From: Mesorhizobium sp. AR02
Lineage (GTDB): Bacteria > Pseudomonadota > Alphaproteobacteria > Rhizobiales > Rhizobiaceae
Direction: 5' to 3'
Assembly: GCF_024746835.1 (NCBI RefSeq)
Contig: NZ_CP080531.1
Span: 3,864,001-3,928,000, forward strand
DNA: 64,000 bases
Positions 7,368 through 33,079 of this stretch are shown here, one piece after another. Under the pieces are notes generated by a model that had not been told where the DNA came from, did not search any database, and saw only the letters and a program-made list of their open reading frames with translations. The translations under genes were made by a program, and so were the position numbers. Each line of letters starts with the position of its first letter. Position 1 is the first letter of the stretch.

Positions 7368-7369
7368 CG

Positions 7370-8311: not shown

Positions 8312-8313
8312 TC

Positions 8314-9195: not shown

Positions 9196-9196
9196 C

Positions 9197-11238: not shown

Positions 11239-11311
11239 CTGCTTTCCCGAGGCATCGGGAAGCGCAAATACATGACAGTTAAATCCTCAATCAGGAAAAG
11301 TAGGAGAGCAC

Positions 11312-12706: not shown

Positions 12707-12778
12707 CGCGGCATGTAACAGCTCGCCGAACTCTGCGCCGGACGGCGCTATGTTTGATCCTAGGCTTTGATTACGTCC

Positions 12779-12865
12779 CCGTTCATCGTCGCGCTGCACG
12801 AGATCGATGCGACCGTGGAGCGACTTGGTGAGGCGTTCGATGCCGCTCCTGCGATCTGGCGTTGA
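12779..12865 (+). pseudogene. Possible C-terminal remnant of a class-III aminotransferase
   Basis: The frame reads PFIVALHEIDATVERLGEAF and ends DAAPAIWR. It resembles the last 25 residues of glutamate-1-semialdehyde-aminomutase-like aminotransferases (HTEADIDATVERLGEAL). It is short and therefore uncertain. Confidence 0.3.
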
Positions 12866-12910
12866 TACGACGTGAGCATGCTGATTTACGCCACCTCCCA
12901 AGGCGTGCCG

Positions 12911-12940
12911 GCCCGGCAGGAGCTTAGGCTCCTGCCGGGC
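12911..12940. terminator. Strong GC-rich hairpin, probable transcription terminator
   Basis: Perfect 13-bp arms GCCCGGCAGGAGC and GCTCCTGCCGGGC are separated by TTAG, followed by GTTTAC. It lies about 200 bases after the CapA stop and could end the importer-CapA transcript. The T run is short, so termination efficiency is uncertain. Confidence 0.55.
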
Positions 12941-13522
12941 GTTTACTTACGCGTGCGCCTTGGGCGCACCAAAGTAGGAGTCGGCTTTGTGCTTTATTAG
13001 CGGACGCAGTTTCTGATCGAGCGGAGATGCCCTTTCAACAACAACGGCCAAATATTTCCAAACTTTGAGGGTCATCTCGCCCATAAACTATTCGTTCACT
13101 CCGACGTCTTGAACCGGTGCCTTTTTGCCGTTGGAAGGCGAGCCGGGGCTTTATTGTTTGAGCGCTGAAGTGGCGTTCTGCGGCTAACGGCGGTCGGAGC
13201 GGAGAGCGTGCCCACGTCCCGGCTCCTAGTCGAGAACATCGATCATGTAGGGACAACGCCCGCCAGATGGGCACCTGTCATGGCAGTCTGCTGGCGTCGC
13301 TCTCCGTTACAAATTGCAACGCGCGTTGACCAAATATGCTTGGCCAGTTCCCGAAGGGTGGCGATCCTGAGGGAACAAGGGACAACGCTTCCAAGTTTTC
13401 CGCGCTGATGTACGCGAGCATCGATATCGCGATCGTCACCGGCCGCCCGACTCCTGGCGAGGAAGATAGACTGGGAACAAGCCGCGCATACCGAGCCTTC
13501 GCACGCTCAAAGGGCGGCATGG
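12941..13522. other. Non-coding or degenerate stretch before IS5
   Basis: Nearly 600 bases with only short frames that show no family motifs or ribosome-binding sites. No gene is supported. Confidence 0.4.
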
Positions 13523-14841
13523 CAGTTGGACAGTTCGAAATACCTCGCCTTTGGAACCGGATTTTGATTCACTCGACGCGTTGATTTGCACGGAGGCAGT
13601 GGATGCGGGGACAGGCTGGTTTCTGGGACATTGACGAGCGATATGTCCGGCTGAGCGAGGCCGGCGATCCGCTGGAGAAGCTGAATGCGGTGGTGCCGTG
13701 GGAGGTTTTCCGCAAGCCGCTGGGCAAGGCGCTGAAGCGCTCCGATGGCGCGAAGGGTGGCCGGCCGCCTTACGATCCGGTGATGATGTTCAAGATCATG
13801 GTTCTGCAGGCGCTCTACGGCCTGTCTGACGACCAGGCCGAGTTTCAGATCCAGGACCGGCTATCCTTCATGCGCTTCCTGGGGCTGGGTCTCGGAGACA
13901 GGGTGCCGGACGCCAAGACGATCTGGCTGTTCCGGGAGCATCTCACACAGGCCGGCGCGGTGGACAACCTGTTCGCCCGTTTCGACAAGCACCTCGGCAA
14001 GGCCGGCTACCTGGCGATGGGCGGGCAGATCGTCGATGCCACCATCGTGGCGGCGCCCAAGCAGCGCAATACCGACGCCGAGAAGACTGACATCAAGGCG
14101 AGCACGGTTCCGGACGAGTGGAAGAAGAAGCCCACGAAGCTGCGCCAGAAGGACCGCGATGCACGCTGGACGGTGAAGTTCTCGAAAGCCAAGGTCGCCG
14201 AAGAGGGAAAGGCGCAGCAACGCGACATCGCCATTCCCGCCTTCGGCTATAAGAACCATGCCTCGATTGATCGCCGGCACGGCTTCATCCGGGGATGGAA
14301 CGTGACGAGCGCGTCAGCCTATGACGGCGCGCAGCTTCGCAATGTGCTCAACCGCGGCAACACCGGCTCGACGGTGTGGGCCGACACGGCCTATCGCTCG
14401 AAAAAGAACGAGGAGTGGCTGGAGAAGAACGGCTACGTCTCTGACATCCACCAGAAGAAACCGAAGGGTCGGCAGATGAGCGAGGCGACGTCGCGGGCCA
14501 ATGGGCGGAGATCGAAAACCCGCGCATTCGTCGAACACGTCTTCGCGCAGCAGAAATCCAGGATGGGCCTGTTCGTGCGCACCATCGGCATCGCCCGCGC
14601 CAGGACGAAGATCGGCATGGCCAACCTTGCCTACAATCTCACCCGCTTCGTGTGGCACGAGGGGCGAACTGCGTCCGCATAACGGGCGAATGCGGCGAAA
14701 ACCGCCGACGCAACGCCGAAATCAATCAGCCATCTACCCAGGCAAGGGGCGAAAACCTTGTCATAGTGTCAGATTCGGCCAACCGCACCCGTTTGTCCGC
14801 CTTGCCGTTCAAAAACCGCGGTAAATCGATCTGTCCAGCTG
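13523..14841 (+). mobile_element. IS5-family insertion sequence
   Basis: Imperfect terminal inverted repeats are visible: CAGTTGGACAGTTCGAAA at the left (from 13523) against the reverse complement of the right end, CAGCTGGACAGATCGATT (to 14841). About 1.3 kb with one intact transposase gene is the usual IS5 size. No clear target duplication was found, so the ends are accurate to only a few bases. Confidence 0.65.
13603..14682 (+). CDS. IS5 family transposase
   Basis: The 359-residue DDE transposase looks complete. It has an N-terminal DUF772-type region (PPYDPVMMFKIMVLQALYG), then the catalytic residues in QIVDATIVAAP, VWADTAYRS and HVFAQQKSRMGLF, and ends LAYNLTRFVWHE as usual. No frameshift is visible. 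A degenerate relative of its C-terminus is found near 5000 on the other strand. Confidence 0.92.
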   Translation: MRGQAGFWDIDERYVRLSEAGDPLEKLNAVVPWEVFRKPLGKALKRSDGAKGGRPPYDPVMMFKIMVLQALYGLSDDQAEFQIQDRLSFMRFLGLGLGDRVPDAKTIWLFREHLTQAGAVDNLFARFDKHLGKAGYLAMGGQIVDATIVAAPKQRNTDAEKTDIKASTVPDEWKKKPTKLRQKDRDARWTVKFSKAKVAEEGKAQQRDIAIPAFGYKNHASIDRRHGFIRGWNVTSASAYDGAQLRNVLNRGNTGSTVWADTAYRSKKNEEWLEKNGYVSDIHQKKPKGRQMSEATSRANGRRSKTRAFVEHVFAQQKSRMGLFVRTIGIARARTKIGMANLAYNLTRFVWHEGRTASA

Positions 14842-15167
14842 GATACTCAGCGGCACTGGGCCGCCTCCTTGAAGAAGTCCATAGGGTCTGCATTTTTGCA
14901 AGCGCTTCCTCCGTCAGCATCGGCTTTAACATGAATTTATTTTGTTTCAAACTACGCCATTTTGCGCGGCCTTTATTGCAGCGGCCAACGATTTTTGGTT
15001 CAAACGTTCCTCTCCTAGGTGTTATCAATCGATAGTTGTTACACTTGGTGGTCTATAGTTGTTGCGACTCGTGTCGGAACTGATCAAAAGGACGATAATA
15101 CGGTTGTCTAGCACAAGAGCATCCGTTGTCCTGAACCTATGGCCTAGCCATTCTTCGAAGAGCTTCC
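14842..15167. other. Upstream region of the M81 metallopeptidase gene
   Basis: Short non-coding region. The 9-mer ATAGTTGTT occurs twice, at 15031-15039 and 15055-15063, 24 bases apart. This could be a regulator site, but no family can be named. The ribosome-binding site before ATG 15168 (GAAGAGC) is weak. Confidence 0.35.
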
Positions 15168-16652
15168 ATGACCTATCGCATCCTCACTGGCGAGATCGAA
15201 CATGAGGCCAACACCTTCAGCATGGTGCCGACGACGCTCGAGAATTTCCGGTCCGGCGCCTTGCTGCTGGGCGAGGAGATTCCACCAGCGCGCCGGGGCA
15301 CTCGCACGGCCCTGGGCGCGACATTTGAGGCCGCAGAGAAATTCGGCTGGACGCTCTCTCATCCGCTCGTCGCTAGCGCCAATCCTGGGGGCACGGTAAC
15401 TAAGGAAACATTCGACCAGCTCTGCGCCTGGTTCCTTGGAGGCGGCCAGGGCTGTGATGGCGCACTCATCAACCTCCATGGTGCAATGGTTGCCGAGGGA
15501 TGCGAGGACCCGGAAGGCGAGGTTCTCGCCCGGTTACGGGCCATGCTCGGGCCCGACGCGCCGATCGTCGCCACGCTCGACCTGCACGCCAACGTCACGG
15601 CAAAGATGGCGACAAACGCCTCCGCGCTGATCGCCGTTCGCACGTATCCTCATATAGACTACTATGAACGCACCTGGCAGGGGGCAGAACTACTCGATCG
15701 CGCGCTACGCGGCGAGATTCGTCCCCGCACCGTTATGGCGAAGCGTCCAATGCTTCGCGGTCTCGATTACGGGCGGACTCAAGTGGGCCCGATGCGTGAA
15801 CTGATTGACCGCGGCGAGTTGCTGGAGGGCTCCGGAACGGTGCTCGTGGTCAGCGTCTGCGCAGGTTTCGCCCGGAGCGACATTTACGATGTCGGGCCGA
15901 GCGTTACCGTTACTGCCGACGGCGACACCACCGACGCGCAGCGTATCGCCGAGGAATTCATGGACTACGCGTGGGAGACACGTGAGTTTATCTCTTCCCC
16001 CTGGACAACCGCCAGCGTCGCCCAGGCCGCGGAACGCGCCAAGTCCGGAGAGTTGCATGCCAGACAACCCGTGGTGCTCGCTGATGACAGCGATAATCCG
16101 GGCGGCGGTGCTTATGGCGACGCGACAAACCTGCTGCGCGCCATGATTGCGGCCGGCCTTCAGAATGCTGCCTTCTATGCGATCTTCGACCCGGAGGCCG
16201 TGCAGGCGGGCATCGCCATCGGCATCGGCAATAAAGGGCGAATCCTGCTCGGCGGCAAGCACGCCCCCGAGATGGGCGGGGCGCCGCTCGAGGTCGAGGC
16301 GCAGATAGTCTCCATCACCGATGGCCATTTCCGCTGCCACGGTCCTATGGGCGGAGGCGCATGGCGCAGTTACGGGCCGAGTCTGATGCTGCGCGCGGGC
16401 GGCATCGAAGTTGCGGTGATCTCAGGGAACGATCAAGCGACCGACCTCGCCCAGCTCACTTCTTTAGGTATCGACCCGCTTCACTGCATGACAATAGCAC
16501 TGAAGTCGTCTCATCATTTCCGTGCGGCGTTCGAACCTATCGCTCGCGAGGTGATTATGGTCGATGGGGGCGGGATGTTGGGATCGGCGCTCCTGTCAAG
16601 TTATCGCAATGTTCGCCGTCCGATCTGGCCACTTGACGACATCAAACTCTAG
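15168..16652 (+). CDS. M81 family metallopeptidase (microcystinase C / MlrC-like)
   Basis: A 494-residue zinc metallopeptidase of the MlrC family, whose founding member cleaves linearised microcystin peptides containing D-amino acids and Adda. The N-terminal domain has GEIEHEANTFS and NLHGAM. The likely zinc ligands are the Asp and His in TLDLHANVT and the His in RTYPHIDYYE. The C-terminal MlrC_C domain includes ADDSDNPGGGAYGDAT and the conserved end MVDGGGM with RRPIWPLD. There is no signal peptide, so it is cytoplasmic. In other proteobacteria such genes often sit next to dipeptide ABC importers, which fits the importer 4 kb upstream (an IS5 now separates them). The true substrate is unknown. 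Confidence 0.9.
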   Translation: MTYRILTGEIEHEANTFSMVPTTLENFRSGALLLGEEIPPARRGTRTALGATFEAAEKFGWTLSHPLVASANPGGTVTKETFDQLCAWFLGGGQGCDGALINLHGAMVAEGCEDPEGEVLARLRAMLGPDAPIVATLDLHANVTAKMATNASALIAVRTYPHIDYYERTWQGAELLDRALRGEIRPRTVMAKRPMLRGLDYGRTQVGPMRELIDRGELLEGSGTVLVVSVCAGFARSDIYDVGPSVTVTADGDTTDAQRIAEEFMDYAWETREFISSPWTTASVAQAAERAKSGELHARQPVVLADDSDNPGGGAYGDATNLLRAMIAAGLQNAAFYAIFDPEAVQAGIAIGIGNKGRILLGGKHAPEMGGAPLEVEAQIVSITDGHFRCHGPMGGGAWRSYGPSLMLRAGGIEVAVISGNDQATDLAQLTSLGIDPLHCMTIALKSSHHFRAAFEPIAREVIMVDGGGMLGSALLSSYRNVRRPIWPLDDIKL

Positions 16653-18090: not shown

Positions 18091-18721
18091 GCAAACATGC
18101 GGCGATTCTTGCGATCGACCACAGACACAGAAGAACCTTGAGCTCGGCAAGCCCCGCAAGCGACGCGAAAGGAGCTCGTTGAGAGAAGCGATCAGAGAAC
18201 CTGATGGGACACGACCGCAACTCTGTATTCGAACGATTCAGCTGCCTGGGGCAGAACAGACACGACCGTCTGGTTGTCAGGTCTGCAACACACGCATGTT
18301 GAACCAATCTCCTGTTTGGCCTCAGGCAGTATAGTTGAAAAGCAAGATAGAGTGCCGCCTTCAGCTAGGTCAGCAAATTGGCACGAGCTTTGCGCGCTTT
18401 AATTGCGAGCGGCGGAAGCCGCTAACTGGCTTCATGGGTGAAATCGCGATCGATCGAGGAAACGAAAATGTCAAGTCCTCGTCAAAATGTTCTACGATGC
18501 TTGGACAGGGGATGATGGAACGGTGGCGTTCGAGGTTTGCGAGGGCTCGCCCTCGCGGTAACGCCCTAAACAATCTTGAACTAGCCTTTTGTTGTAGCTT
18601 ACGGGGGCAGACTAGGCGCGTAGAACACCAACCGGAGAACCATCCCGCTTAGTCCACATGGTCTTCGTGTTCCACACCCAACGATAAGCTGACCCGCACT
18701 CATTCTGAAAGGTCCTTTACG
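18091..18721. other. No gene recognised; contains promoter region of the second ligase gene
   Basis: About 630 bases without a supported gene. GAAAGG at 18708-18713 is the ribosome-binding site of the following gene. No TGT-N10-ACA (NifA) or nod-box motif was found. Confidence 0.4.
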
Positions 18722-19801
18722 ATGCAATTGGCGCTCATATATGGCGGCCGCTCAGTGGAGCATGACGTATCGATCGCGATGTACAATCATATCGCCGACG
18801 TCTTCAACAATGCTTCCGACGCCAATATTTCTCCAGCACGCATATACTACATCTCCCGATCCGGGGACCTGCTCAGGCTCGCACTTGACTGGGATCGACT
18901 TCCCAAGCACGACGAGTTCGCAACTCGCGCTGAAACGCATCCGCTCGCTTCTCTCGCACACCTACTCAAGAGCGAAGGCCTGTTCGTCTTTTCACTTCTT
19001 GTGGGCCAGGACGGGGAGGATGGCCAAATCCAGGCTCTTGCCCAATTTCACGATATTCCGGGTAGCTTCGGCGACAAGACTGCGGCCATGCTCTCAGCAG
19101 ATAAGTATCTACAGGGCGTAGTTGCTAATCGACTTTGCCCCGAGTTAACTCCTATTCCGACGGTCCACGTCTCCCAAGGCAATCTCGACGCCGGCATTAC
19201 AGAAGCCCTTCGGCATCTTGCTGGGCCGTGTGTCCTCAAACCGAACACGCTCGGTGGATCCTTCCTCACCGAGTGGACAGACAAACTCTCAGAGGAGAGC
19301 CTCCGTACCTATTCCGAACGGATCGCTGCGTATGACGCTTCGTTTTTGGTCCAGCAGCGAATTGTTGGAACGGAGTACACGTGCGGCGTCTTAATAAACC
19401 ACCATGAGATTATGCCGCTTCCGATTGCGCGGATCAACAATCCCTCCGGCTTCCTCGGGTATGATCAGAAGAAGCGAGAGGTTTCTGTTACCTTCCACGA
19501 CGTAGAGGAGATGCTTCACACTCGTATCGGCTCGATTTGCACGAAGATTTCTCGGGAGTTCAGGCTTCACACATTCGGGCGCCTTGATTTTATCGTTGAT
19601 GAGCGGCAATGTATCCACTTCTTCGAAGTCAACGTGGTCCCAGGGCTGACGGCAACAAGCATTTTTACCAAGATGCTCGCACAAGCCGGCTTTGACTTGT
19701 GCCGCCTCATTCGGCTAGCTGCCTCCAACGAGGTATATCAACGGCACCTAGAGAACATTCGCAAGATCGAAACCAGCCGTATATGCACTACTACAGTCTA
19801 G
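18722..19801 (+). CDS. D-alanine-D-alanine ligase family protein, second copy
   Basis: A 359-residue ATP-grasp ligase closer to canonical Ddl than the copy at 2743-3726. It has the N-terminal YGGRSVEHDVSI, the GQDGEDGQIQ loop, CVLKPNTLGGSF, FGRLDFIVDE and the metal/ATP-binding FEVNVVPGLTATS. Enzymes of this type form a dipeptide from two amino acids (often D-Ala) with ATP. Non-housekeeping paralogues act in D-cycloserine or vancomycin-type resistance and in small-peptide synthesis. It stands alone in IS-rich DNA, not beside mur or fts genes. Its TAG stop lies exactly in the CTAG target of the IS701 that follows. The stop would exist without the IS, so the protein is full length. Confidence 0.88.
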   Translation: MQLALIYGGRSVEHDVSIAMYNHIADVFNNASDANISPARIYYISRSGDLLRLALDWDRLPKHDEFATRAETHPLASLAHLLKSEGLFVFSLLVGQDGEDGQIQALAQFHDIPGSFGDKTAAMLSADKYLQGVVANRLCPELTPIPTVHVSQGNLDAGITEALRHLAGPCVLKPNTLGGSFLTEWTDKLSEESLRTYSERIAAYDASFLVQQRIVGTEYTCGVLINHHEIMPLPIARINNPSGFLGYDQKKREVSVTFHDVEEMLHTRIGSICTKISREFRLHTFGRLDFIVDERQCIHFFEVNVVPGLTATSIFTKMLAQAGFDLCRLIRLAASNEVYQRHLENIRKIETSRICTTTV

Positions 19802-21227
19802 CATTACAGTTGCATATTTATCTACGGTCTGAATCTATGGGTCTCCATGATTCGGAGGTCATGGATGACAGGTGCATCAATCGAGACGACGCTTGAGCTT
19901 TGGGCATCATCGCTGCGTGACGTGAAGGCTCGCATGCGCGGACTGTTTACGCAGGAGCGAGTTTCAGCCTCTGCGAACCTCTTCCTGGACGGCCTGCTGG
20001 GTGACGAGCGGCGTAAGACAGGTTGGATGCGCGCTGAGGCGGCCGGTGACCCCGGCCCGTGGCGGCAACAAGCCGTTCTGGGTCGCGGGCGTTGGGACGC
20101 GGACGCACTTCGCGACATCGTGCGAGAGTATGTTGTAGGAAACCTCGCCACGGATGATGCGGTCCTGGTCATCGACGAGACGGGCTTCCTCAAGCAGGGC
20201 AAGACATCGTGCGGTGTTGCGCGTCAATATACAGGTTCGGCAGGCAAGATAACGAACTGCCAGATCGGTGTGTTCGCCGCCTATGTGTCCGCTCGCGGTC
20301 ATGCCTTTATCGACCGGGCCTTGTACTTGCCCAAAAGCTGGACCGGAGATCGGGCAAGGCTTGCAGCAACCCATGTTCCTGAGGCTATAGCCTTCGCTAC
20401 CAAGCCAGGCTTGGCTGTCGATATGATACGGCGTGCGCTAGCAGCCGATGTGCCGTTTTCATGGGTGGCCGCAGATGCGGTGTATGGCGTCGGGGACGTC
20501 GAAGGGACCCTGCGCCGAGCCTGCAAAGGCTACGTTCTTGGGGTCAAATCGGACAATCGGACCACCATTTCGCCTCCTGGTCAGGTAAGCCTCCGGTCGC
20601 CGGCACAGCTCAGGAGATCGCCCGTGATCTTGATCCAACTGCATGGCAGCGTCTTTCCGCCGGTGAGGGCACCAAAGGCGCGCGGCTTCATGACTGGGCC
20701 TACTGCGAACTCGCCGATCTCGATGCCGACGAATATAACGAGACGAAATCGGGGCTTTGGACCCGTGGCCTCCTAATCCGGCGCAATATCAGCGACGGTG
20801 ATCTCGCATTCTTCACCACATGGTGCCCGGCCGGGACGGGCATCCAGACGCTCGTTTCCGTTGAAGGCCATCGCTGGGCGATCGAAGACAGCTTCGAGAC
20901 CGCCAAGAACGAGCTCGGACTCGATCACAACGAAACCCGGTCATGGCATGGCTGGCATCGCCACGTCTCCCTCGTCATGCTGGCCTTCGCCATGATGGCG
21001 GTGATCCGATACCGCGCCAATGACGTGACGCCCCAAAAAAGACCGCGGATGCCGACCATCAGGATTTGATCCGCTGGTCTATCCAGGAAGTCCGGCGCAT
21101 CGCCATCAGACTCGCCCAGCGTCGCATAAACCCCGCCTACGTCATCGCATGGTCATGCTGGAGGCGCGCCCATCAGGCGGCCGCTCGACGAGCTCATCTG
21201 AAATCTAAAACGCAACTGTAATGCTAG
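19798..21227 (+). mobile_element. IS701-family insertion sequence with CTAG target duplication
   Basis: CTAG flanks the element at 19798-19801 and 21224-21227, the four-base target duplication typical of IS701. Terminal repeats CATTACAGTTGC (19802-19813) and GCAACTGTAATG (21212-21223) are perfect. The element is 1.4 kb and carries one broken transposase gene. Confidence 0.88.
19865..21221 (+). pseudogene. IS701-family transposase, two frameshifts
   Basis: Reading starts at ATG 19865 (GGAGG upstream) with TGASIETTLELWASSLRDVK and includes LVIDETGFLKQGKTSCGVAR and WVAADAVYG. An 8-bp tandem duplication (AATCGGAC twice, 20547-20562) shifts the frame. The protein resumes as HHFASWSGKPPVAGTAQEIA and SVEGHRWAIEDSFETAKNEL. 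A one-base change in an A run near 21036 shifts again before the C-terminus KTADADHQDLIRWSIQEVRR. Otherwise it is a complete DDE transposase, so inactivation looks recent. Confidence 0.88.
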
Positions 21228-21822: not shown

Positions 21823-22773
21823 CGTCCGAGATCGCCGGAAACGCGACGCCGAAAGGCCTGGCGCATGGAAATGGCTGGGCTGATCATCCTCGATGGCGGT
21901 TGGATGAAGAACCGCTGTCTCCCTCCGCCGCGACGGAGGGAGATAGCGGCCATGTCGGCCCCATCGCGCTCGGTAACATTCCTCGGTGAGGCAATATGCG
22001 GATCCCGACGATTTACCGGACGGCACTCCTTCACTGTCCGGAATCATTGGAATACGCAGCAATATGAGGGATCAATTCCTCGTGTCGCTTGACACCGTCC
22101 TAATGGGCCCTTTTCGAGACTATCTCGAAATCCGCCGGGAGGAAGGCCAGCGCAACGGGTCGCGGCTGCGGACCGTCTACAGGTGGGCCGCCATCCGCAA
22201 GGAGCGGTCATCGACTGCTCCGCCAAACTCGCGATGGCGGCCGCCATCGCGTCGCCACAGCTTTGCTATCCCGCGCGAAACTTGCCCGCCGTTTTGCTGC
22301 CTCAGACAAAACTTACGACAAGGCCTGTCGGATTTGTTTCGCCTACGACATAGTGGTGTGTGGCCCAATTTCGTCCCGCACTCGGGCTTAAATATATGAT
22401 ATTAATATCAAAATCTTTTTTCGGCGCCTTCTGCGAAGTTGGCATGACTTTTGGAGCTTTCATTGCGCGTCGCCAAGCATAGCAAATCTAGGTGGATACG
22501 CATCGTTGTAGATTCAGGGATGCCGGCCTGCGACGACGGAACGACCAAGGATGACTGCAACCGAACAGATTCGAAGGCCGGCGGCAACCGAAGATTGCGC
22601 CCGATTTTCTTTGGCTCCGTCAATGCTTTTTCTGAATGCAATCCAGCCGATTTGTCGACCAAGACGGACGTTGTCGCACAATCCGAGCAGTTGTCAGACC
22701 TGATGAGTTAGCAGTGTTCTCGTCTGAAGGTTATCTGTTTTGGCGTAAAATATTGAAAAATAGGATTTTTCGA
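21823..22773. other. Remnant-rich stretch before the biosynthetic block
   Basis: No intact gene. Near 21968-21995 is GGTAACATTCCTCGGTGAGGCAAT (written here in two parts: GGTAACATTCC and TCGGTGAGGCAAT), which resembles the terminal repeat of the 2.1-kb IS at 33651-35776, so an end of a related element may remain. An open frame at 22451-22711 (TTG start) ends 60 bases before the racemase gene but has no recognisable features. Confidence 0.4.
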
Positions 22774-23532
22774 ATGATCGACGTCATACCGACACACTAC
22801 CCCCCGCCTTTCGAACTATTTGGGCAACAGAAACCACTTGGAGTGGTAGGCGGAATGGGAAGCTTGGCAACTGCTAATTTCTTGCAGGTTCTGGCTCGAA
22901 AAAGCCGAGCTGACAGAGATCAGGATCACATCCCATTTATCGCTCTCTCACTTCCAAATATCTTTGATCGTTCGCAAGCAATCTCAATCGGCAGCGCCGC
23001 GCCTTTGCGGCAAATTGTGGAACGCGCATATTGGTTAGAGAAAGCTGGATGTGGAGCAATTGCCATCCCCTGCAATACTGCACATTTCTGGGACTCGCAG
23101 ATTAAGCAAGCCCTATCGATCGAGTTGATCAATCTCAAGGCAATCACCAGAAAAGCGATATATGAGGCGCGTCATAACGAAAACAATGATCTACGCATAA
23201 TAACCTTAGGGACGAGTGCCACTATGCAACACTCCCTGTATCCTCCCACAACTGTCAACCGTTTCGGGGACGAGTTTTTGCACGGTTTTAAGGGATTGCA
23301 GGACGCAACCGTCAAAATTATTGGGGATGTCAAGTCCGGAAATATCACACGAGCAGAAGCAAATCTCACACGACTTATTCAGAAAATCCGATCCTATAAA
23401 CCGGATATAATTATCTTGGGTTGCAGTGAATTGTCCGCAATCTCTGCCAGCCTGGCAAATGACGATGACGTTATTGACCCAATCAATATTCTTGCAGATG
23501 CGTGCATTAAATGGTGGCAAAACGACGGATAA
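22774..23532 (+). CDS. Aspartate/glutamate racemase family protein
   Basis: A 252-residue cofactor-independent racemase-fold enzyme. It has the N-terminal GVVGGMGSLATANF, the first catalytic Cys in AIPCNTAHFW, and the second in ILGCSELSAI; both cysteines are present, so racemisation (for example L- to D-Asp) is plausible. ATG 22774 is chosen over the upstream frame because AGGA precedes it and the family begins here. It heads a three-gene run with the ATP-grasp ligase (46-base gap) and the SHMT-like gene. By eye, GC content is lower than in the flanks, suggesting separate ancestry. It could supply a D-amino acid to the ligase. A decarboxylase or isomerase of the same fold cannot be ruled out. 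Confidence 0.85.
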   Translation: MIDVIPTHYPPPFELFGQQKPLGVVGGMGSLATANFLQVLARKSRADRDQDHIPFIALSLPNIFDRSQAISIGSAAPLRQIVERAYWLEKAGCGAIAIPCNTAHFWDSQIKQALSIELINLKAITRKAIYEARHNENNDLRIITLGTSATMQHSLYPPTTVNRFGDEFLHGFKGLQDATVKIIGDVKSGNITRAEANLTRLIQKIRSYKPDIIILGCSELSAISASLANDDDVIDPINILADACIKWWQNDG

Positions 23533-23578
23533 ATGCCACTGCCACTCATCTGACATCTGAGTACGACGGAGATAAAAA

Positions 23579-24919
23579 ATGGCCCGAATTATACTTGGAA
23601 ATGTCGGTACAGATGCGATGGCTCCGCCAGCTCCATTGCTTTCCGACGAATTTCTGAGGACAAATGCAGCGTCGGCAAAACGAATGATTTGGCTTGCTAA
23701 GAACGACGACGTATTTATCAACCCGACACCGGTAACGCAACTATTTTTAGACTATGTCAACTCCCTAAAGGGTGGCAGTAATATCGTGTCGCTATCGACT
23801 TCCTCAGTATACACCACGCGCCCTCATCCCATCTCGAAAAGTGACTTTGCCGCTAGTAGTCGTTTGTCCAAATCTCTGCGTCTGTTGGCTTCAGATACCC
23901 ACGTTTCGTGTCTGGAACCGTATATCGCAGACGAAGTCTCCATGGCCATTGCACACGTTCTCGGGGATATTCCCGTAATGTTTTCAAATCAAAATGTTCG
24001 GGCAAGTCCTAACGCAACTCGTCTTCTTAACGACAAGGCAAAATTTCGCGAGTTTGCGCCCAAGCTCGGCGTGCCGATTGCCAGTGGCAGTATCTGTGTA
24101 AGCATGCAAGAATTGGTTGATGCTGCATGTAGAGCCATAGCAGTTTCCGATATCATTATTCTGAAGATGGTATGTCATTCAGGTGGCGATGGCAACAGCG
24201 TGATCTCAAAGGGTATTGAAAGATCGTTCCAAGGCGCCATGCGCTCGGTTTCTGTTCTAGAAGGTGATGCCAATTCCATACGAGCAGCGGTTCGCGAAAT
24301 TGGATTGGTTGCGACGGAAAACGAACCAGTGATAGTCGAGGTGTATAATGAAAATGAGTCGTCCATAGGCGTGCATTTCGACATTGGCGTGGACAGAGTT
24401 GAACTTGTCGGCGTCGCTTCAATCCTGTTGAATCCAGGTTATGGAGGAGCATATTGGGGTAAATCGCTCGTTGATGACTTGCCAAGCGAGGTGCTGGCCT
24501 GGTGTTACAATCTCGGTTATTATGCAAAAGAGATTGGGTATTTCGGGCCCCTCAGCGTCGATATCGTCAAAGCCAAGGAGATTGGCTTCTTTGCGTGTGA
24601 AGTAAACGGGCGGCATGGAGGCTTTTCTTCAGTCAGGGCGGTATCGAATTCCTTGGGATTAGAAACCGATATCAAAAACGGTGAGCGTGTCGTCTTATCG
24701 CGAAATTTCGTCCCGATCGACATTCGGTTCCCTTATCTCGTTGATCTTCTGAAGCAGAAACAACTTCACTATAAATCATCTGATAGAAGCGGAGCAATTG
24801 TGATGGTGGAAGGCCATGACGATAAGGGGCCGTTTGATTTCGCCATTTTCGGAGGAGACCTCGCACAACTTCGGCGTATAGAGGCTAGTATCATGCGGTT
24901 GGCCGACGGATCATATTGA
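23579..24919 (+). CDS. PreATP-grasp / ATP-grasp domain peptide ligase-like protein
   Basis: A 446-residue ATP-dependent carboxylate-amine ligase. The N-terminus (MARIILGNVGTDAM, then RMIWLAKNDDVFINPTPV with FLDYV) matches the PreATP-grasp domain that precedes the catalytic domain in PGM1-type ligases of pheganomycin biosynthesis. The ATP-grasp part includes NDKAKFREFAPKLGVPIA, DIIILKMVCHSGGDGNSV (lysine and glycine loop), VIVEVYNENESSIGVHFDIG and the metal-site residues in FACEVNGRHGG. Such enzymes attach an amino acid to another amine. Substrates here are probably the products of its two neighbours. GGAGATAAAAA precedes ATG 23579. The GC content is low, like the rest of the block. Confidence 0.85.
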   Translation: MARIILGNVGTDAMAPPAPLLSDEFLRTNAASAKRMIWLAKNDDVFINPTPVTQLFLDYVNSLKGGSNIVSLSTSSVYTTRPHPISKSDFAASSRLSKSLRLLASDTHVSCLEPYIADEVSMAIAHVLGDIPVMFSNQNVRASPNATRLLNDKAKFREFAPKLGVPIASGSICVSMQELVDAACRAIAVSDIIILKMVCHSGGDGNSVISKGIERSFQGAMRSVSVLEGDANSIRAAVREIGLVATENEPVIVEVYNENESSIGVHFDIGVDRVELVGVASILLNPGYGGAYWGKSLVDDLPSEVLAWCYNLGYYAKEIGYFGPLSVDIVKAKEIGFFACEVNGRHGGFSSVRAVSNSLGLETDIKNGERVVLSRNFVPIDIRFPYLVDLLKQKQLHYKSSDRSGAIVMVEGHDDKGPFDFAIFGGDLAQLRRIEASIMRLADGSY

Positions 24920-24966
24920 GTGATCCCATATTAAGATATATTGGCGAGTAGAAAGGATGTGGTATA

Positions 24967-26226
24967 GTGGTCGGTATGTTGGAGACGGTCGATGTAGAAA
25001 TTAGGAAGCTTGTGTTATTGGAGGAGCAACGGCAATTGTCTCAGCTAAGCCTGGTCGCCTCTGAAAATTATTCCTCCCCGACGATCAGAGGATTCGAAGG
25101 AAGTATATTTGCGGACAAGAATGCGGAGGGTTACCCGGGGAGGCGGTGTGTCTCAGGTTGCGAATATGCTGACCAACTAGAGAATTTGGCGATCGAGAGG
25201 GCAAAATCTGCTTTTGGCTGCGAACACGCGAATGTTCAGGCCATGAGCGCTACCATAGCCAATTTCGCGATAATGAATGAGCTTTTTCAGCCACGCGACG
25301 GACTAATGGCAATGCGGCTTCAAGACGGCGGTCATTTAAGCCACGGCGCCTCTTTTCATGCGAGCGGCCGAAGTTTTCGATGGTGTTTCTATGGAGTTTC
25401 AGAGATCGATGAGCAACTGGATTATGATGAGGTGCGGTCAATCGCGCTCGAAAATCGACCCGCGGCAATCATCTGTGGAGGTTCATCATATCCACGATTG
25501 ATTGATTATGAAAAGATGTATGAGATCGCACAGGAGATTGGTGCACTTCTTTGGGTGGATCTAGCACATACCGCAGGCCTTGTAGCGGGACGCGCAATCC
25601 CGTCTCCTTTCCCTTACGCAGACATAGTTACGACTTCCACACACAAAACCCTTCGAGGACCACGTGGCGGTGGAGTCATTTTATGTAAACAGAAGTTAGC
25701 TAGAAAGATTGACAGAGCAATATTCCCGGGTTTGCAAGGCGCGCCAAAAATGGACTTAATTGCGGCGCGGGGGGCATTGCTGGCCGAAGTACAAACGCCT
25801 CGTTTTCGCGAATATGCTAAGGATGTGTTAAGCAATGCGAAGGCGTTGGAGCGTGGCTTGCTTGATGCGGGGGCCTCGCTTGTTTCCGGTGGCACATCGT
25901 CTCATCTAATACTTCTTAACTTGTTGAAATGCAATACAACGGGCCTTGAGATTGAAGGGTATTTGTCAGAGGGTCGGGTTATCACGAATAAAAATCCGGT
26001 CCCGTTTGACACACTTCCATCATCTAAGGCGGGTGGGCTAAGAATTGGTAGTGCTGCACTGACAACGCGAGGATTTGATGAAGCGCGATTTTTTGAACTT
26101 GGTGTTTTGATTGGAAAAGTCGTTACGTCTACCCATAAGCGCGATAGAATTGTGGACCTGAGGTCCTTTGTTGATCGAAACACGCAGGGGCTTCCTTTAT
26201 TTAATCAGAAGTGGCTGGCGCAATGA
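24967..26226 (+). CDS. Divergent serine hydroxymethyltransferase-like PLP enzyme
   Basis: A 419-residue fold-type I PLP enzyme of the SHMT family. It has VASENYSSP, GHLSHGA, WVDLAHTAGLVAG, the PLP-lysine motif TTSTHKTLRGPRGG, and the carboxylate-binding Arg in LRIGSAALTTRGF. In the first conserved block KYAEGYPGKRYYGG is replaced by KNAEGYPGRRCVSG, so residues matching Tyr55, Tyr64 and Tyr65 of E. coli GlyA are Asn, Cys and Val. The phosphate loop SGSQAN is SATIAN. Those tyrosines matter for glycine/folate chemistry, so this is probably a specialised aldolase or alpha-substituted-serine-forming enzyme, not housekeeping GlyA. GTG 24967 follows GAAAGG by 10 bases; ATG 24976 is an alternative start. 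Confidence 0.85.
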   Translation: MVGMLETVDVEIRKLVLLEEQRQLSQLSLVASENYSSPTIRGFEGSIFADKNAEGYPGRRCVSGCEYADQLENLAIERAKSAFGCEHANVQAMSATIANFAIMNELFQPRDGLMAMRLQDGGHLSHGASFHASGRSFRWCFYGVSEIDEQLDYDEVRSIALENRPAAIICGGSSYPRLIDYEKMYEIAQEIGALLWVDLAHTAGLVAGRAIPSPFPYADIVTTSTHKTLRGPRGGGVILCKQKLARKIDRAIFPGLQGAPKMDLIAARGALLAEVQTPRFREYAKDVLSNAKALERGLLDAGASLVSGGTSSHLILLNLLKCNTTGLEIEGYLSEGRVITNKNPVPFDTLPSSKAGGLRIGSAALTTRGFDEARFFELGVLIGKVVTSTHKRDRIVDLRSFVDRNTQGLPLFNQKWLAQ

Positions 26227-28210: not shown

Positions 28211-29933
28211 GTAACCGGGGCAGATTACCGGGCGGTGGGGGTTTGCAGGCGCGTGCGTTCGTGATTCACCCTTTGCGTGATGTTACCACCGACTGATTCG
28301 CTTGAAGGCTTGTCGCTCGCGGAACTCCGCGGGCTGGTTTCTGCGCTGATCGGCGAAGTGCGCGGTCTTCAAGGCCGGGTCGAGAGCCTTGAGATCGAGA
28401 ACCAGGCGCTACGCGCCGAGAACCAGACCCTAAAGGATGAGATCGCCCGGCTGAAGGACCTGCCGCCGCGTCCCCCGGTCAAGCCGACCAAGCCATCGGG
28501 CATGGAGAAGGCGACGCAGCCGACATCTGGCAAGGGCAAGCGCCGCCGGCGCGGCGCCAAGCGCGACGGCGGTCGCGTGAGCCGCGAGGTGACGGTTGCG
28601 GTGAGCGCTCCTGCGGGCTCTCGCTTCAAGGGGTATGAGACGATCCTGGTGCGCGATCTGGCGTTGTCGGCCGAGGTGGTGCGCTATCGCCGCGAGCGCT
28701 GGGTGACACCGACCGGCGAAACGATGGTGGCGCCCTTGCCGGCGGGGATCATCGGCGGCTGGGGCGCGAACCTGCGCCGCTTCATTCTGGCCTGTCACAT
28801 TCAAGGCCAGGTGACGACGGAGCGGTTGACGGCGTTGTTGACCGGGATCGGGGTCGACATTTCGAAGCGCCAGGTGGTGCGGCTGATTTCGGAGGGCCTG
28901 GAGGCCTTCGCGGCGGAGGACCGTGACGTGCTGCGCGCCGGGCTGGCTACGGCGCCCTGGATCACCGTCGATGATACGTCGGCGCGCCACGCCCACCAGG
29001 ACGGCTACACCACCCAGATCGGCGATCGCCGCTTCACCGCGTTCCGCACCGGGCGATCGAAGTCACGGGAGGCGTTCCTGGCGACGCTGCGTGCCGGGCA
29101 CAGCGATTACTTCATCAATGAAGAGGCCCTGGCCTATATGCGCGGCCGCAACCTCGCCGGTCCGGTGATCGCGCGGCTGGCGGCTGCGCCGCACAAGGCA
29201 TTTGCCGACAGCGCCGCATGGCAGGCGCATCTGGCGGCGCTCGGCCTCGACCAGCTCGCGGTTGAGCCCAACCCAGTCAGGATCGCCACCGAAGGGGCGA
29301 TGTGGGGAGCGATCCGCCACCACGGCTTTCTTGGCGATACCGTGGTCGTGTCCGATGATGCCGGCCAGTTCCGCATCGGCGACCATGCTCTGTGCTGGGT
29401 CCACGCCGAGCGGCTCGTCCACAAATTGATACCCGTGACCCCGGATCAACGTCAGGCCGTCGACATCATGCGCCAGTTGATCTGGTGGTTCTATCGCGAC
29501 CTCCAGAGCTACCAGCGTGCTCCTTGTCCGCGCCGCGCGGCGGCCCTGCGCGCCCGCTTCGAGCGCCTGTTCAAACGACGAACCGGCTACGTCATGCTCG
29601 ACCGGCTTCTTGCCAGGCTGCATCGCCGCAAGCATGAACTCCTGCGCGTTCTCGATCGTCCCGAGATCCCGCTCCACACCAATGGTTCGGAAAACGACAT
29701 CCGCACCTTCGTCACCAAGCGCAAGATCTCCGGCGGAACCGTCAGCGAGGCAGGCAAGAACGCCCGCGACGTCCTGCTCGGCCTGATGAAGACCTGCATC
29801 AAGCTCGACGTCTCATTCTTCCGCTATCTCGGCGACCGCCTCGCCATACCAACACAAGAGTCGATTCCGCCGCTCCCGGATCTCGTTAGGCAAGCCGCTC
29901 AAGCCTGACTGCCCGGTAATCTGCCCCGGTTAC
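28211..29933 (+). mobile_element. IS66-family (single-ORF, ISBst12-type) insertion sequence inside an IS110 remnant
   Basis: Perfect 23-bp terminal repeats at 28211-28233 and 29911-29933 (GTAACCGGGGCAGATTACCG and its complement) enclose one gene. GGGCCGCCG flanks both sides (28202-28210 and 29934-29942), a target duplication of 8-9 bp as expected for IS66. The element lacks tnpA and tnpB, like the ISBst12 subgroup. Confidence 0.9.
28280..29908 (+). CDS. IS66 family transposase TnpC
   Basis: The transposase is about 540 residues and intact. An N-terminal leucine-zipper coiled coil (LQGRVESLEIENQALRAENQ) is followed by a lysine/proline-rich linker, a zinc-finger-like and helix-turn-helix region, and the catalytic motifs WITVDDTSARH, VVVSDDAGQF and NGSENDIRTFVTKRKISGG. 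ATG 28280 is used; a GTG at 28277 is adjacent. It ends shortly before the right terminal repeat. Confidence 0.93.
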   Translation: MLPPTDSLEGLSLAELRGLVSALIGEVRGLQGRVESLEIENQALRAENQTLKDEIARLKDLPPRPPVKPTKPSGMEKATQPTSGKGKRRRRGAKRDGGRVSREVTVAVSAPAGSRFKGYETILVRDLALSAEVVRYRRERWVTPTGETMVAPLPAGIIGGWGANLRRFILACHIQGQVTTERLTALLTGIGVDISKRQVVRLISEGLEAFAAEDRDVLRAGLATAPWITVDDTSARHAHQDGYTTQIGDRRFTAFRTGRSKSREAFLATLRAGHSDYFINEEALAYMRGRNLAGPVIARLAAAPHKAFADSAAWQAHLAALGLDQLAVEPNPVRIATEGAMWGAIRHHGFLGDTVVVSDDAGQFRIGDHALCWVHAERLVHKLIPVTPDQRQAVDIMRQLIWWFYRDLQSYQRAPCPRRAAALRARFERLFKRRTGYVMLDRLLARLHRRKHELLRVLDRPEIPLHTNGSENDIRTFVTKRKISGGTVSEAGKNARDVLLGLMKTCIKLDVSFFRYLGDRLAIPTQESIPPLPDLVRQAAQA

Positions 29934-30537
29934 GGGCCGCCGCTCAGGCCACGGTCATAACGTCTAGCGGTACGATGCCTCTGTGGGACGAGGCAGCAGC
30001 CATCACGTGGGCTTTGTTGCCGCCTGAGGGCCTAAGACCTAATTCTCAGGGGAGCAGATTGACCGCGTATGCAACAGGGCGAGGCTGAGGTGCTTCCCAA
30101 TCGATGGTCATATTGTTGCAAGCCCGACAAAATTTTGCTGGCCGCGGACAGGCAGAATCGGGGCGAGAAGACAAGGTACTGAGCCAAAATGACTTTTTTG
30201 CGTGGCATGACATTTGCTTGGGGAAGACAACGATCAACCCGCAACGGGGCCGCTCGATGTTTATACCAAAGATTCCGCGTGAGGGCACTGGAACGACGGG
30301 TTTCGAAAATTTGCTGGTGACCGCAGAATCCGGTGGCTGCGCATCACCGTCCTGCGGCTCGTACACAACACCGGACGTCATGCATTCTACTGCGTTTTTA
30401 TGCGTGCTGCCCACACCTTGCGCGGTGTCTCCTTCTAGCCCTGGGCGTCGCGCAGCGAGCGCCGATGCCGCTATAACCGCCCATTCGGTCGCGGTGCGAT
30501 CTATGAAAGTGGACCTGCTCGCTCTGAGGTTACTCCA
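29934..30537. other. IS110 flank and upstream region of arginine deiminase gene
   Basis: The first 30 or so bases (GGCCGCCGCTCAGGCCACGG and ATAACGTCTAG) match the reverse complement of 17868-17900 and belong to the split IS110 element. The rest shows no gene; an open frame at 30104-30541 has no recognisable motifs. The promoter of the arginine deiminase gene should lie here, but no strong ribosome-binding site precedes its ATG (GAGGTTACTCC). Confidence 0.45.
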
Positions 30538-31755
30538 ATGACGAGCTTAGGTGTTCATTCCGAGGTTGCCCCGTTGCGAGAAGTTCTGGTGCACCGGCCA
30601 AGCTTTGGCCTCGATCGCCTCACTCCACAGAACTGCAAGAGCCTTCTTTTTGACGATGTGCCTTGGGTGAAACGCGCGGCAGAGGAGCATGACATCTTCG
30701 TGGAGGGATTGCGTGACCTTGGCGTGTTAGTTCACTCATTCGACGAAATGCTTTCGGAAACGATGGCATCATCGGAAGCCCGCCGTTGGCTCCTACACCG
30801 TCGTATTGACCCCTCCTCGGTGGGGCAAGATAAAGTCGATGAGTTGAGCGGCTGGCTTGAAGAGATACGGCCTGATCAGCTCGCCGCCTATCTGGTTAGG
30901 GGGGTTCTGGCTGCGGAAATCCCGTTCCAGCAGCGCGGCCTGACGGGGCAAACGCTGATGCCGGAAGATTTCGTCCTGCCGCCATTGCCGAACCAGCTTT
31001 TCACACGAGACAGCTCCTCTTGGTTATATGGTAGCGTCTCGATCAACACAATGTATTGGCCGGCGAGACAGCCTGAAGCTGCGAATGTCGAGGCGGTCTA
31101 CCGCTTCCATCCGCGGTTTCGCGAGGTCAGCTTCACTTACTTGTTGCCTGATGGAATAGACCCCGCTTTCAGTCTCGAGGGCGGAGACGTGATGCCGATC
31201 GGCGGCGGTGTTGTGCTGATCGGAATGGGCGAACGAACCACACCCCGCGCAGTCGAGGCTCTGGCGCGCCGCTTGTTCAGGACGGATGAAGTGACGCACG
31301 TTATCGCAGCACTGATGCCGCGGAATCGCCGCTTCATGCATCTCGACACAGTCTTCACGTTCTGCGACCGTGACCTCGTGACGACATACCCGCAAGTCAT
31401 TGAGCGATTGCAGACGTTTTCCCTGAGACCGAGCAATCCTGAAGGGGCGCTTGACGTCACCAAGGAGACAAGACCTTTCTTATCGGTGGTGGCCGATGCG
31501 CTGGGGCTGAAAGCTCTCCGTAACATCCCAACTGGCGGCAATAGCTTCGCGGCGGAGCGGGAGCAATGGGATGGCGCCAATAATGTGCTCGCCGTTGAGC
31601 CGGGCGTAGTGATTGCTTACGACCGTAACGCACACACGAACACGCTGCTGAGGGGCGCCGGTGTGAAGGTAATCACTATCGGCGGCTCAGAACTCAGCCG
31701 TGGCCGTGGCGGGGTGCATTGCATGACTTGTCCACTGGTGCGCTACCCGATCTAA
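30538..31755 (+). CDS. arcA: Arginine deiminase
   Basis: Hydrolyses L-arginine to citrulline and ammonia. The 405-residue protein has the complete active site: [17 protein letters not shown] near the N-terminus, the substrate Asp in [35 protein letters not shown] with catalytic His and Asp, and the nucleophilic Cys in [14 protein letters not shown] near the end. Length and motif spacing are normal. It is not followed by arcB or arcC as in an energy-yielding ADI operon. Instead a CtlX-like amidinohydrolase gene lies 390 bases downstream on the same strand, so a role in processing a guanidino compound or feeding citrulline to another pathway is plausible. Confidence 0.92.
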
Positions 31756-32146
31756 CAAACAAGAAACTGCTTGCTGGCCACGAAGGCGGACTCGCCATTA
31801 TCCGCATGAGATCTTCGCCATCGACCGGCGAGCAACAGCAAGGACCAAACACGTTCGGCGTCAACATTGGTCTGCGGAAGCAGAGCCGGTAAGCGATTGA
31901 GGGCGATTTGCACGACGATGTTTTGACGTGCGGTGATACGCTCAGACTGGATCGAGGGTGGGATCCCATAAATGCTTGCTACGCATCCGGCAACTGAACT
32001 GGAGAGTGATCACTGGTCACCAGGCCGAACAGCGATCTGCGGAACTGAGTTTCGGCCATCGCCTCATTCTTGGCAACCGAGGATGACCAGAGAAATCTTT
32101 TCGGCATGCCTACAACGCGCTCGCCAACCCGAAAGGAGTCTTCCCC
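31756..32146. other. Intergenic stretch between arginine deiminase and CtlX-like genes
   Basis: No gene is supported. The minus strand at 31760-31960 has a protein-like frame (ERITARQNIVVQIALNRLPA) without a recognised family, probably a remnant. AAGGAG at 32130-32135 serves the next gene. Confidence 0.35.
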
Positions 32147-33079
32147 GTGCCACGACGTTCAGAATTCTCGGTTCAGTCTCCTTCCGCTGTGGTTATGATC
32201 CGTCCACATCATTTCACGATCAATGCCGAGACTGCGACCGACAACAGATTTCAGGTAGCGGAACGTGATACGAGTGACCTGTCGCCGCTCGCATACGCGG
32301 AAATCACTCGCGCCGCTGCGCTGCTTCAAGAGAAGGGTGTTGCGGTGCATTTGTTCGAGGACGAGGGCAGCGACACCCCGGATTCGGTATTTCCGAACAA
32401 CTGGTTTTCAACCCACCCCGAAGGACACGTAGCGATCTATCCGATGAAGGCTCTAAGTCGCCGGCGTGAGCGCCGAAGTGACATTATCCAGTTGCTGAAG
32501 CAGTGTTATAGAGTGCAAGTGGTAATTGACTATTCTGGCCTTGAACCGGACGGTCTCTTCTTGGAAGGTACAGGTGCGATGGTGCTCGATCATATCCATC
32601 GCGTCGCATATGCGGTAAGATCCGAGCGGACGAATCCGATCGTGCTTGAGAGATTCTGCAGCCAATTTAGCTTTGAGCCCATGCTCTTTTCGGCGAAAGA
32701 CCCCAGGGGGGCGGATATTTACCATACGAACGTGTTGATGTGCGTCGCGACCGATTTCGCCATGATCGGGCTCGACATGATCACTGACACAGTGAGACGG
32801 CGCGAAATCGTCAATCGTTTGGAGCGGACCGGCCGCCGGGTAGTCGGGCTTACGGCGGGCCAGATTGAGAATTTCGCAGGCAATGCGATTGAGCTAAAAG
32901 GAAAAAACGGGCGCGTCCTGGCCTTGTCGACCACCGCATTCTTGGCATTGAGGCCGGAGCAGGTCGCCATCATCGGCGAGAGCGCGCAACTGCTGCCGCT
33001 GGCAATTCCTACCATCGAGCGGGCGGGCGGTTCTGTACGATGCACGATCGCGGGCGTGCATCTCACGCCACGGAGCTAG
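32147..33079 (+). CDS. CtlX-like amidinohydrolase (arginine deiminase-related superfamily)
   Basis: A 310-residue protein of the guanidino-group-modifying superfamily, like CtlX (citrulline utilisation hydrolase) and arginine N-succinyl/DDAH-type enzymes. It has RPHHFTINAETATDNRFQ, the conserved DTPDSVFPNNWFSTH, LEGTGAMVLDH (catalytic acid and loop), DIYHTNVLMCV with the catalytic His, and the nucleophile Cys near the end in GGSVRCTIAGVHL. It acts in the cytosol on a guanidino or ureido group. Start is GTG 32147 with AAGGAG upstream. Same strand as arcA, so the pair may work in sequence. The exact substrate is not known. Confidence 0.82.
   Translation: MPRRSEFSVQSPSAVVMIRPHHFTINAETATDNRFQVAERDTSDLSPLAYAEITRAAALLQEKGVAVHLFEDEGSDTPDSVFPNNWFSTHPEGHVAIYPMKALSRRRERRSDIIQLLKQCYRVQVVIDYSGLEPDGLFLEGTGAMVLDHIHRVAYAVRSERTNPIVLERFCSQFSFEPMLFSAKDPRGADIYHTNVLMCVATDFAMIGLDMITDTVRRREIVNRLERTGRRVVGLTAGQIENFAGNAIELKGKNGRVLALSTTAFLALRPEQVAIIGESAQLLPLAIPTIERAGGSVRCTIAGVHLTPRS

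Follow-up and report, generated by a model that had tools for sequence, protein, structure and literature searches.

A racemase, ATP-grasp ligase and serine hydroxymethyltransferase-like gene block shared by four rhizobial genera and its linked catabolic genes: a candidate rhizopine-like system

What might be made by a compact block of three genes encoding an Asp/Glu-family racemase, a PreATP-grasp ligase and a serine hydroxymethyltransferase (SHMT)-like protein in the genome of Mesorhizobium sp. AR02? The block lies in a stretch of 64,000 nucleotides (contig NZ_CP080531.1, positions 3,864,001 to 3,928,000; hereafter the window), and a preliminary description of this sequence had seen three same-strand genes with short gaps and a lower guanine-plus-cytosine (GC) content, flanked by insertion sequence (IS) remnants. 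These observations were borne out. All three open reading frames (ORFs) are intact on the + strand with intergenic gaps of 46 and 47 bp, and NCBIfam agreed with Pfam on their families (Asp/Glu racemase, PreATP-grasp and SHMT). The GC content per kb was 0.46-0.50 across 23-26 kb, as against 0.52-0.68 in the rest of the window, save for the 1-kb step at 37-38 kb (0.498), and transposase ORFs of the DDE_5 and IS66 types flank the block (Table 1). A racemase start at 22774 was preferred over one at 22636 because the former aligns with the starts of relatives. From its gene content, we consider it probable that the block forms, with a set of linked catabolic genes, a rhizopine-like pair of synthesis and catabolism functions.

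A protein search with the ligase, in which 7997 candidates were scored, retrieved 33 matches including that of the window, and the named organisms among them belonged only to Mesorhizobium, Bradyrhizobium, Ensifer and Rhizobium. Eight loci encoded a full-length ligase: the window, Mesorhizobium AR07 (L005), R. anhuiense T24 (L006), R. leguminosarum Gr12/7 (L007), Ensifer LCM 4579 (L012), Bradyrhizobium pachyrhizi (L013) and two further Bradyrhizobium loci (L041 and L042). In all eight, representing four genera, the racemase gene was located directly 5' and the SHMT-like gene directly 3' of the ligase gene, so that the three-gene order, which the preliminary description had proposed to look for in other rhizobia, does recur in several genera. 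The SHMT-like gene of L041 looks broken, since matches towards its 3' end fall in two frames, whilst in M. amorphae (L008; also L014 and L017) and in L018 a truncated ligase gene follows the racemase gene. The ligase family is rare: within the window's genus 4 of 146 genomes had it (two of the four truncated), and of 397 genomes sampled from the order a single one did, that of the window itself; the block was present in 3 of 265 Bradyrhizobium genomes. Ratios of non-synonymous to synonymous substitution (dN/dS, NG86) relative to relatives were 0.21-0.28 for the racemase (three comparisons), 0.12-0.22 for the ligase (five comparisons) and 0.05-0.17 for the SHMT-like gene (three finite values of four comparisons, dS being saturated in the fourth), indicating that the block genes are under purifying selection. 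The recurrence of the gene order in all full-length-ligase loci, together with these low dN/dS values, confirmed that the block is real and far from a chance arrangement.

The racemase passed the cut-off of the NCBIfam amino acid racemase subfamily (117.8 versus 93.1), whilst its best NCBIfam model, CuyB, scored 161.7, below the cut-off of 190; its best solved relative was the aspartate racemase 1jfl. Cysteines C100 (PCNTAH) and C217 (GCSEL) were invariant in all five aligned sequences, and we take these to be the two catalytic cysteines of Asp/Glu racemases that operate independently of pyridoxal phosphate (PLP).

The PreATP-grasp plus ATP-grasp fold spans the whole length of the ligase. An AlphaFold2 model (predicted local distance difference test score, pLDDT, 89.4) was compared with solved structures using Foldseek, and the top matches were PGM1 (3wvq/3wvr) and a Streptomyces ATP-grasp peptide ligase (8ynd/8ynq), with E values of 2e-32 to 2e-24 and template modelling (TM) scores of 0.76-0.81. 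BesA ranked after these (TM 0.70). A primary-metabolism ligase, which had been raised as an alternative, was ruled out by the fold, since PurK-type matches reached TM scores of only 0.51-0.56. Residues K196, D328, E341, N343 and R345, the last three forming an E-x-N-x-R motif, were invariant in 32 of 32 aligned sequences (P0033, a short fusion, was left out) and, by ATP-grasp family roles, are presumably those that bind ATP and Mg.

The SHMT-like protein scored 445.9 against the NCBIfam SHMT subfamily NF000586 (cut-off 335) and retains the THK motif (THKTLRGPRGG) with the PLP lysine, K227. Sequence alignments revealed, however, that N52, C61 and V62 replace Tyr51, Tyr60 and Tyr61 (Bacillus stearothermophilus SHMT numbering), the same three residues being found in 8/8 block loci, whilst all three tyrosines are retained in the GlyA of the same genome and in the solved B. 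stearothermophilus enzyme (the L004 row was left out of this comparison). Among the 18 closest SHMT-like proteins (P0034-P0051), position 51 was N in all 18, position 60 was C in 16 and Tyr in two, and position 61 was V in 17 and A in one; the two that retain Tyr60, P0049 and P0050 of Mesorhizobium, are somewhat more distant. Further relatives carry KNAEGYPGKRFAGG or KNAEGYPGKRFVAG forms. Because three active-site tyrosines are replaced throughout the block loci, the annotation of this gene as a serine hydroxymethyltransferase appears doubtful, and a glyA annotation on a rhizobial symbiotic replicon need not denote an SHMT. A second SHMT of 572 amino acids is encoded in the same genome at C1:213464-214633 (L002), 100 kb from nifH, and by eye its N-terminal extension resembles a helix-turn-helix regulator.

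Upstream of the racemase gene we identified a predicted NifA/sigma54-type promoter, comprising an upstream activator site (UAS) of the form TGT-N10-ACA and a -24/-12 box, TGGCATGACTTTTGGA; the boxes of relatives read TGGCACGCTTTTTGAA, TGGCACAACTTTTGAA and TGGCATGCGCTTTGCT. Promoters were sought within 500 bp upstream at ten loci, namely the eight intact blocks and the truncated-ligase loci L008 and L018. The full pattern was present at seven (the window, L008, L012, L013, L018, L041 and L042), whereas none of 2000 dinucleotide shuffles reproduced it at any of the ten. In AR07 the UAS is one base off the pattern, and amongst the intact blocks the promoter was thus full in five, near in one and lacking in two. 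In alignments of the upstream regions, both elements stand out within diverged Bradyrhizobium sequence. An A at -12 has been reported for M. loti and R. etli promoters (PMC3538637) and is also found in the AR07 and Ensifer block promoters.

A genome-wide scan with two variants of the pattern gave seven and six matches, which merged to 12 sites, with none in the reversed control. Eight of these are on C1, a 988 kb contig that carries nifH, and four on C2, the 7.47 Mb contig of the block (total genome 8.9 Mb). The four on C2 all fall within 89 kb, between 3,805,192 and 3,894,217, and three are inside the window, before a D-Ala-D-Ala ligase (Ddl)-like gene, the racemase block and an arginine deiminase gene. 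Other sites precede genes for a redoxin, which we read as FixW-like, a phosphoenolpyruvate (PEP) mutase, a GNAT acetyltransferase and EctB. The earlier placement of the block in a symbiotic island therefore needs care, as the block and nifH lie on different contigs, even if NifA-type promoters do occur in this part of C2.

The block was also found to be linked to genes of a catabolic type, and this linkage is well supported. In AR07, Ensifer and Bradyrhizobium a class V PLP enzyme gene adjoins the block; the copy in the window's genome lies 35 kb from the block (C2:3850229-3851392) and is 94% identical to that of AR07, and in 8/8 block loci the gene is on the same replicon or contig as the block. 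In the window's genome it belongs to a 12-gene set that encodes an amino-acid-type ATP-binding cassette (ABC) importer (a family-3 solute-binding protein, two permeases and an ATPase), a type II asparaginase, an M20 peptidase, an amidohydrolase, a divergent IclR regulator, the class V PLP enzyme, an aspartate ammonia-lyase, a glutathione-dependent formaldehyde dehydrogenase and an S-(hydroxymethyl)glutathione synthase. The asparaginase and both formaldehyde enzymes scored above curated cut-offs. All 12 genes were present in four strains of two genera: the window's genome, AR07, where they are split around the block on its plasmid, and T24 and Gr12/7, where they are on the block plasmid in the same order as in the window's genome, the class V gene being 46-47 kb from the block.

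The set was less complete elsewhere. In Bradyrhizobium L013 and L042, genes for the M20 peptidase, IclR, class V enzyme, ABC transporter and aspartate ammonia-lyase were near the block, with no formaldehyde enzymes or asparaginase in the stretches examined. Ensifer encoded the class V enzyme and IclR near the block, with the M20 peptidase and amidohydrolase as fragments only, and genome G640 had two class V copies, one at 39 kb from the block and another at 3.0 Mb. The class V gene was found in three of 146 genomes of the window's genus, two of them with an intact block, and at 1e-40 it matched 15 of 72,556 plasmid records, among them all three with an intact block, though such counts are not independent, as the islands share ancestry. 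The amidohydrolase matched 17 of the same plasmid records, again including the three with an intact block. No full NifA-type site was detected in 11 loci scanned around the catabolic genes, which fits their use by free-living cells. A possible peptide uptake and cleavage unit at 5760-16652 of the window, encoding an oligopeptide-type ABC transporter, a PGA_cap protein and an M81-family metallopeptidase, had been considered as the catabolic partner and was set aside once the 12-gene set had been found.

If the block and the catabolic genes are the two halves of a rhizopine-like system, the following scheme can be proposed. In bacteroids of most lineages NifA and sigma54 would switch on the block, to judge from its promoter sequences. 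The racemase would supply a D-amino acid, most likely D-aspartate given its family, and the SHMT-like enzyme could place a formaldehyde-derived hydroxymethyl group on the alpha carbon, yielding for instance 2-hydroxymethyl-aspartate. Precedent for the hydroxymethylation of a D-amino acid exists in alpha-methylserine hydroxymethyltransferase (MSHMT) and alpha-methylserine aldolase, which act on D-alanine (PMC7918591). The ligase, with its PGM1-type fold and conserved ATP-grasp residues, would couple the hydroxymethylated unit to another amino acid or amine, and the product would exit the bacteroid. Free-living cells with the catabolic genes would take it up through the ABC transporter; the asparaginase, M20 peptidase and amidohydrolase would cut its amide bonds, the class V PLP enzyme would free formaldehyde and leave aspartate, aspartate ammonia-lyase would convert the latter to fumarate and ammonia for metabolism, and the glutathione-dependent enzymes would oxidise the formaldehyde.

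Because the catabolic set of four strains ends in the handling of aspartate and formaldehyde, it points to a compound that probably contains aspartate, a one-carbon group and an amide linkage; of these, the racemase and the SHMT-like enzyme are suited to making the first two, and the ligase to making the third. This particular chemistry is nonetheless rather unlikely to hold as drawn, our estimate having been lowered slightly because of the results for the importer and the formaldehyde enzymes. We regard it as quite possible, if a little short of probable, that the system represents a second class of rhizopine in chemical terms: bacteroids of four genera would make, under NifA control in most lineages, an amide or dipeptide that derives from aspartate, is hydroxymethylated and releases formaldehyde, and free-living kin would eat it using a conserved gene set of the same replicon, which has 12 genes in four strains. 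A short peptide or amino-acid conjugate, as had been suggested initially, is reasonable because the genes co-occur in several genera and the ligase fold is PGM1-like; the NifA-type promoter, the catabolic genes and the absence of the SHMT tyrosines had been missed.

Several observations weigh against the rhizopine-like pairing or its proposed chemistry. The tyrosines missing from the SHMT-like enzyme are needed for normal SHMT catalysis, making hydroxymethyl transfer uncertain. The aspartate ammonia-lyase scored above the subfamily cut-off and below that of the equivalog, and the importer's binding protein matched best a Lys/Arg/Orn model, then Asp/Glu models, all below cut-off. The class V gene occurs without the block in Mesorhizobium G104 and on Methylobacterium, Agrobacterium and Paracoccus plasmids, and in Bradyrhizobium it is present in 79 of 265 genomes (including three with the block) versus the three that harbour the block; being so common without it, the catabolic core would also serve something that the block does not make. 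No formaldehyde enzymes were found beside the class V gene in the stretches of Ensifer L012, Bradyrhizobium L013, L042 and L051, Mesorhizobium 131-2-5, A. tumefaciens 1D1609 and Methylobacterium. Both Rhizobium copies (T24 and Gr12/7) lack the promoter in the 500 bp upstream, and at -12 the window's promoter has a G in place of the consensus C or the A of nifH-like boxes. Furthermore, the promoter patterns were drawn up after the sites had been seen, and within 1.5 kb of nifH in this genome they detect nothing, so that the predictor has misses.

Rhizopines are the textbook case of symbionts that make a private nutrient for their kin, and those known to us are inositol amines of few strains. 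The mos/moc system of Sinorhizobium meliloti resembles the block in that its genes for synthesis and for catabolism share one replicon, and also in its symbiosis-type regulation and patchy distribution. It differs in its product, an inositol amine (PMC3538637), whereas the block would involve amino-acid or peptide chemistry and unrelated enzymes. The block ligase shares with PGM1, the pheganomycin ligase, and with 8ynd a fold over its whole length and a PreATP-grasp domain, but is only 19-22% identical to them in structural alignments, belongs to a rhizobial subfamily and has other partner enzymes. The SHMT-like protein belongs with GlyA and alpha-methylserine hydroxymethyltransferase by family, PLP lysine and subfamily score, and departs from GlyA at the three tyrosine positions. 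The block promoters likewise resemble the NifA-sigma54 regulon of Mesorhizobium loti R7A in their nifH-type -24/-12 boxes (TTTTGAA in AR07 and Ensifer) and UAS, although Table 1 of that study lists no racemase, ligase or SHMT (PMC3538637). In a literature search with subscription papers outside its coverage, none of the titles or opening lines of abstracts described the block. If the rhizopine-like reading is true, four genera share a peptide-type system in which synthesis genes are matched by catabolic ones; the kin-reward hypothesis could then be tested anew, and hydroxymethyl-aspartate conjugates would be a chemical lead for nodules.

Other explanations account for parts of these data. The block could produce a peptide antimetabolite or other bioactive compound directed at competitors or acting on the host plant, the catabolic operon then being unrelated island cargo. 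PGM1- and BesA-like folds, which the ligase shares, are those of enzymes in pathways to antibiotics or non-proteinogenic amino acids, and exporter-type genes are located near the block (EamA in Bradyrhizobium and a major facilitator superfamily (MFS) gene in AR07); we nevertheless regard this as improbable, as a class V gene linked in all eight loci and a 12-gene set shared by four strains from two genera are not readily explained as cargo. Somewhat less likely again is a role in nodule amino-acid metabolism, such as D-amino acid, one-carbon or cell-wall chemistry with no dedicated exported product. All three families do have primary-metabolism members and the genome encodes another SHMT on the nifH contig, but the ligase is not closest to a primary enzyme and the family is patchily distributed.

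The least likely of the alternatives is a metal chelator or osmolyte of the nodule as the block product, made with the aid of EctB/EctC-type enzymes. An EctB gene is situated 3' of the SHMT-like gene in AR07 and in the same region of both Rhizobium plasmids, EctC also being encoded in the latter; the AR07 MFS gene gave a weak EntS-type match (87 bits versus a cut-off of 324), and on C1 of the window's genome a NifA-type promoter precedes an EctB gene, which is followed by an EctC-like stretch. At the block loci of the window, Ensifer and Bradyrhizobium, however, neither EctB nor EctC was present in the stretches examined. An obligatory ectoine-type partner was rejected, EctB being near only three of eight intact blocks and EctC near two in the stretches examined.

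Table 1. Features of the racemase-ligase-SHMT-like block, its surroundings and the linked catabolic set (window positions, unless prefixed C2)
Feature	Position	Strand	Basis or remark
Asp/Glu-family amino acid racemase gene	22774-23532	+	ORF and Pfam Asp_Glu_race, 3e-25
PreATP-grasp / PGM1-type ATP-grasp amide (peptide) ligase gene	23579-24919	+	Pfam PreAtp-grasp, 7.9e-11
SHMT-like PLP enzyme gene	24967-26226	+	Pfam SHMT PF00464, 3.5e-118
Predicted NifA-type UAS, TGT-N10-ACA	22335-22350	+	105 bp before -24 box; aligned upstream regions of five loci
Predicted sigma54-type -24/-12 box, TGGCATGACTTTTGGA	22440-22455	+	Pattern match; -12 off consensus, G instead of C/A
12-gene catabolic set, window's genome	C2:3839291-3854913		
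Transposase ORF (DDE_5) flanking block	19847-20776		
Transposase ORF (IS66 family) flanking block	28277-29908		
Unit with own predicted NifA-type promoter	18379-19801	+	-24/-12 at 18379, UAS 104 bp up; D-Ala-D-Ala-ligase-like gene 18722-19801
Unit with own predicted NifA-type promoter	30203-31755	+	-24/-12 at 30203, UAS 89 bp up; arginine deiminase-family gene 30538-31755

The Ddl-like and arginine deiminase units on either side of the block are probably separate modules. One large cluster uniting them with the block was not supported, as the five relatives that were read lie elsewhere, with the block absent from the stretch read. Amongst the four Ddl-like relatives (L027, L028, L029 and L030), panD, encoding aspartate decarboxylase, is located 5' in three, a full or partial alanine racemase gene (alr) 3' in two and a P1 (S58-family) peptidase gene nearby in three, and NifA-type sites precede panD or Ddl in all four, two with one UAS mismatch. 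This organisation suggests a second putative NifA-driven conjugate, such as beta-alanyl-D-alanine, and the block product may belong to a group of NifA-driven ATP-grasp conjugates that also includes that of the panD-Ddl-alr module. The arginine deiminase gene is followed by a DDAH/CtlX-like gene both in the window (30203-33079) and in M. mediterraneum (L031, 7635-10308), with a NifA-type promoter at both.

Two of the ectoine-type loci mentioned above have further features. In AR07 the EctB gene (L005, 14710-15726) directly follows the SHMT-like gene and is interrupted by an IS701 element. On C1 of the window's genome (918000-937900, L043), the EctB gene, 56% identical to the T24 copy, lies behind its NifA-type promoter and is followed by an EctC-like stretch (41% over 102 amino acids), with two more NifA-type sites 5-6 kb away ahead of short ORFs; this locus is reminiscent of rhizolotine, a tetrahydropyrimidine compound of nodules. 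A reading of an EctA gene at C1:930264 was withdrawn, there being no Pfam support. Diaminobutyrate transaminase has been reported to be active in pea bacteroids, with no evident NifA site noted before its gene in that report (PMC10228743).

Other ATP-grasp genes were also encountered. A PRK02186-like family (query L006:6221-7447) matched 110 plasmid records at 1e-30, of which 91 were from Rhizobium or Sinorhizobium, with up to five places per plasmid record among the matches listed. In S. americanum (L030, 4922-7798), an ATP-grasp gene whose C-terminal domain is that of an L-amino acid ligase follows a KamA gene, and the latter has a -24/-12 box and a UAS with one mismatch. At C2:3805192 (L044), the GNAT acetyltransferase gene behind a NifA-type promoter is situated approximately 4-5 kb from an ATP-grasp relative (28% identity).

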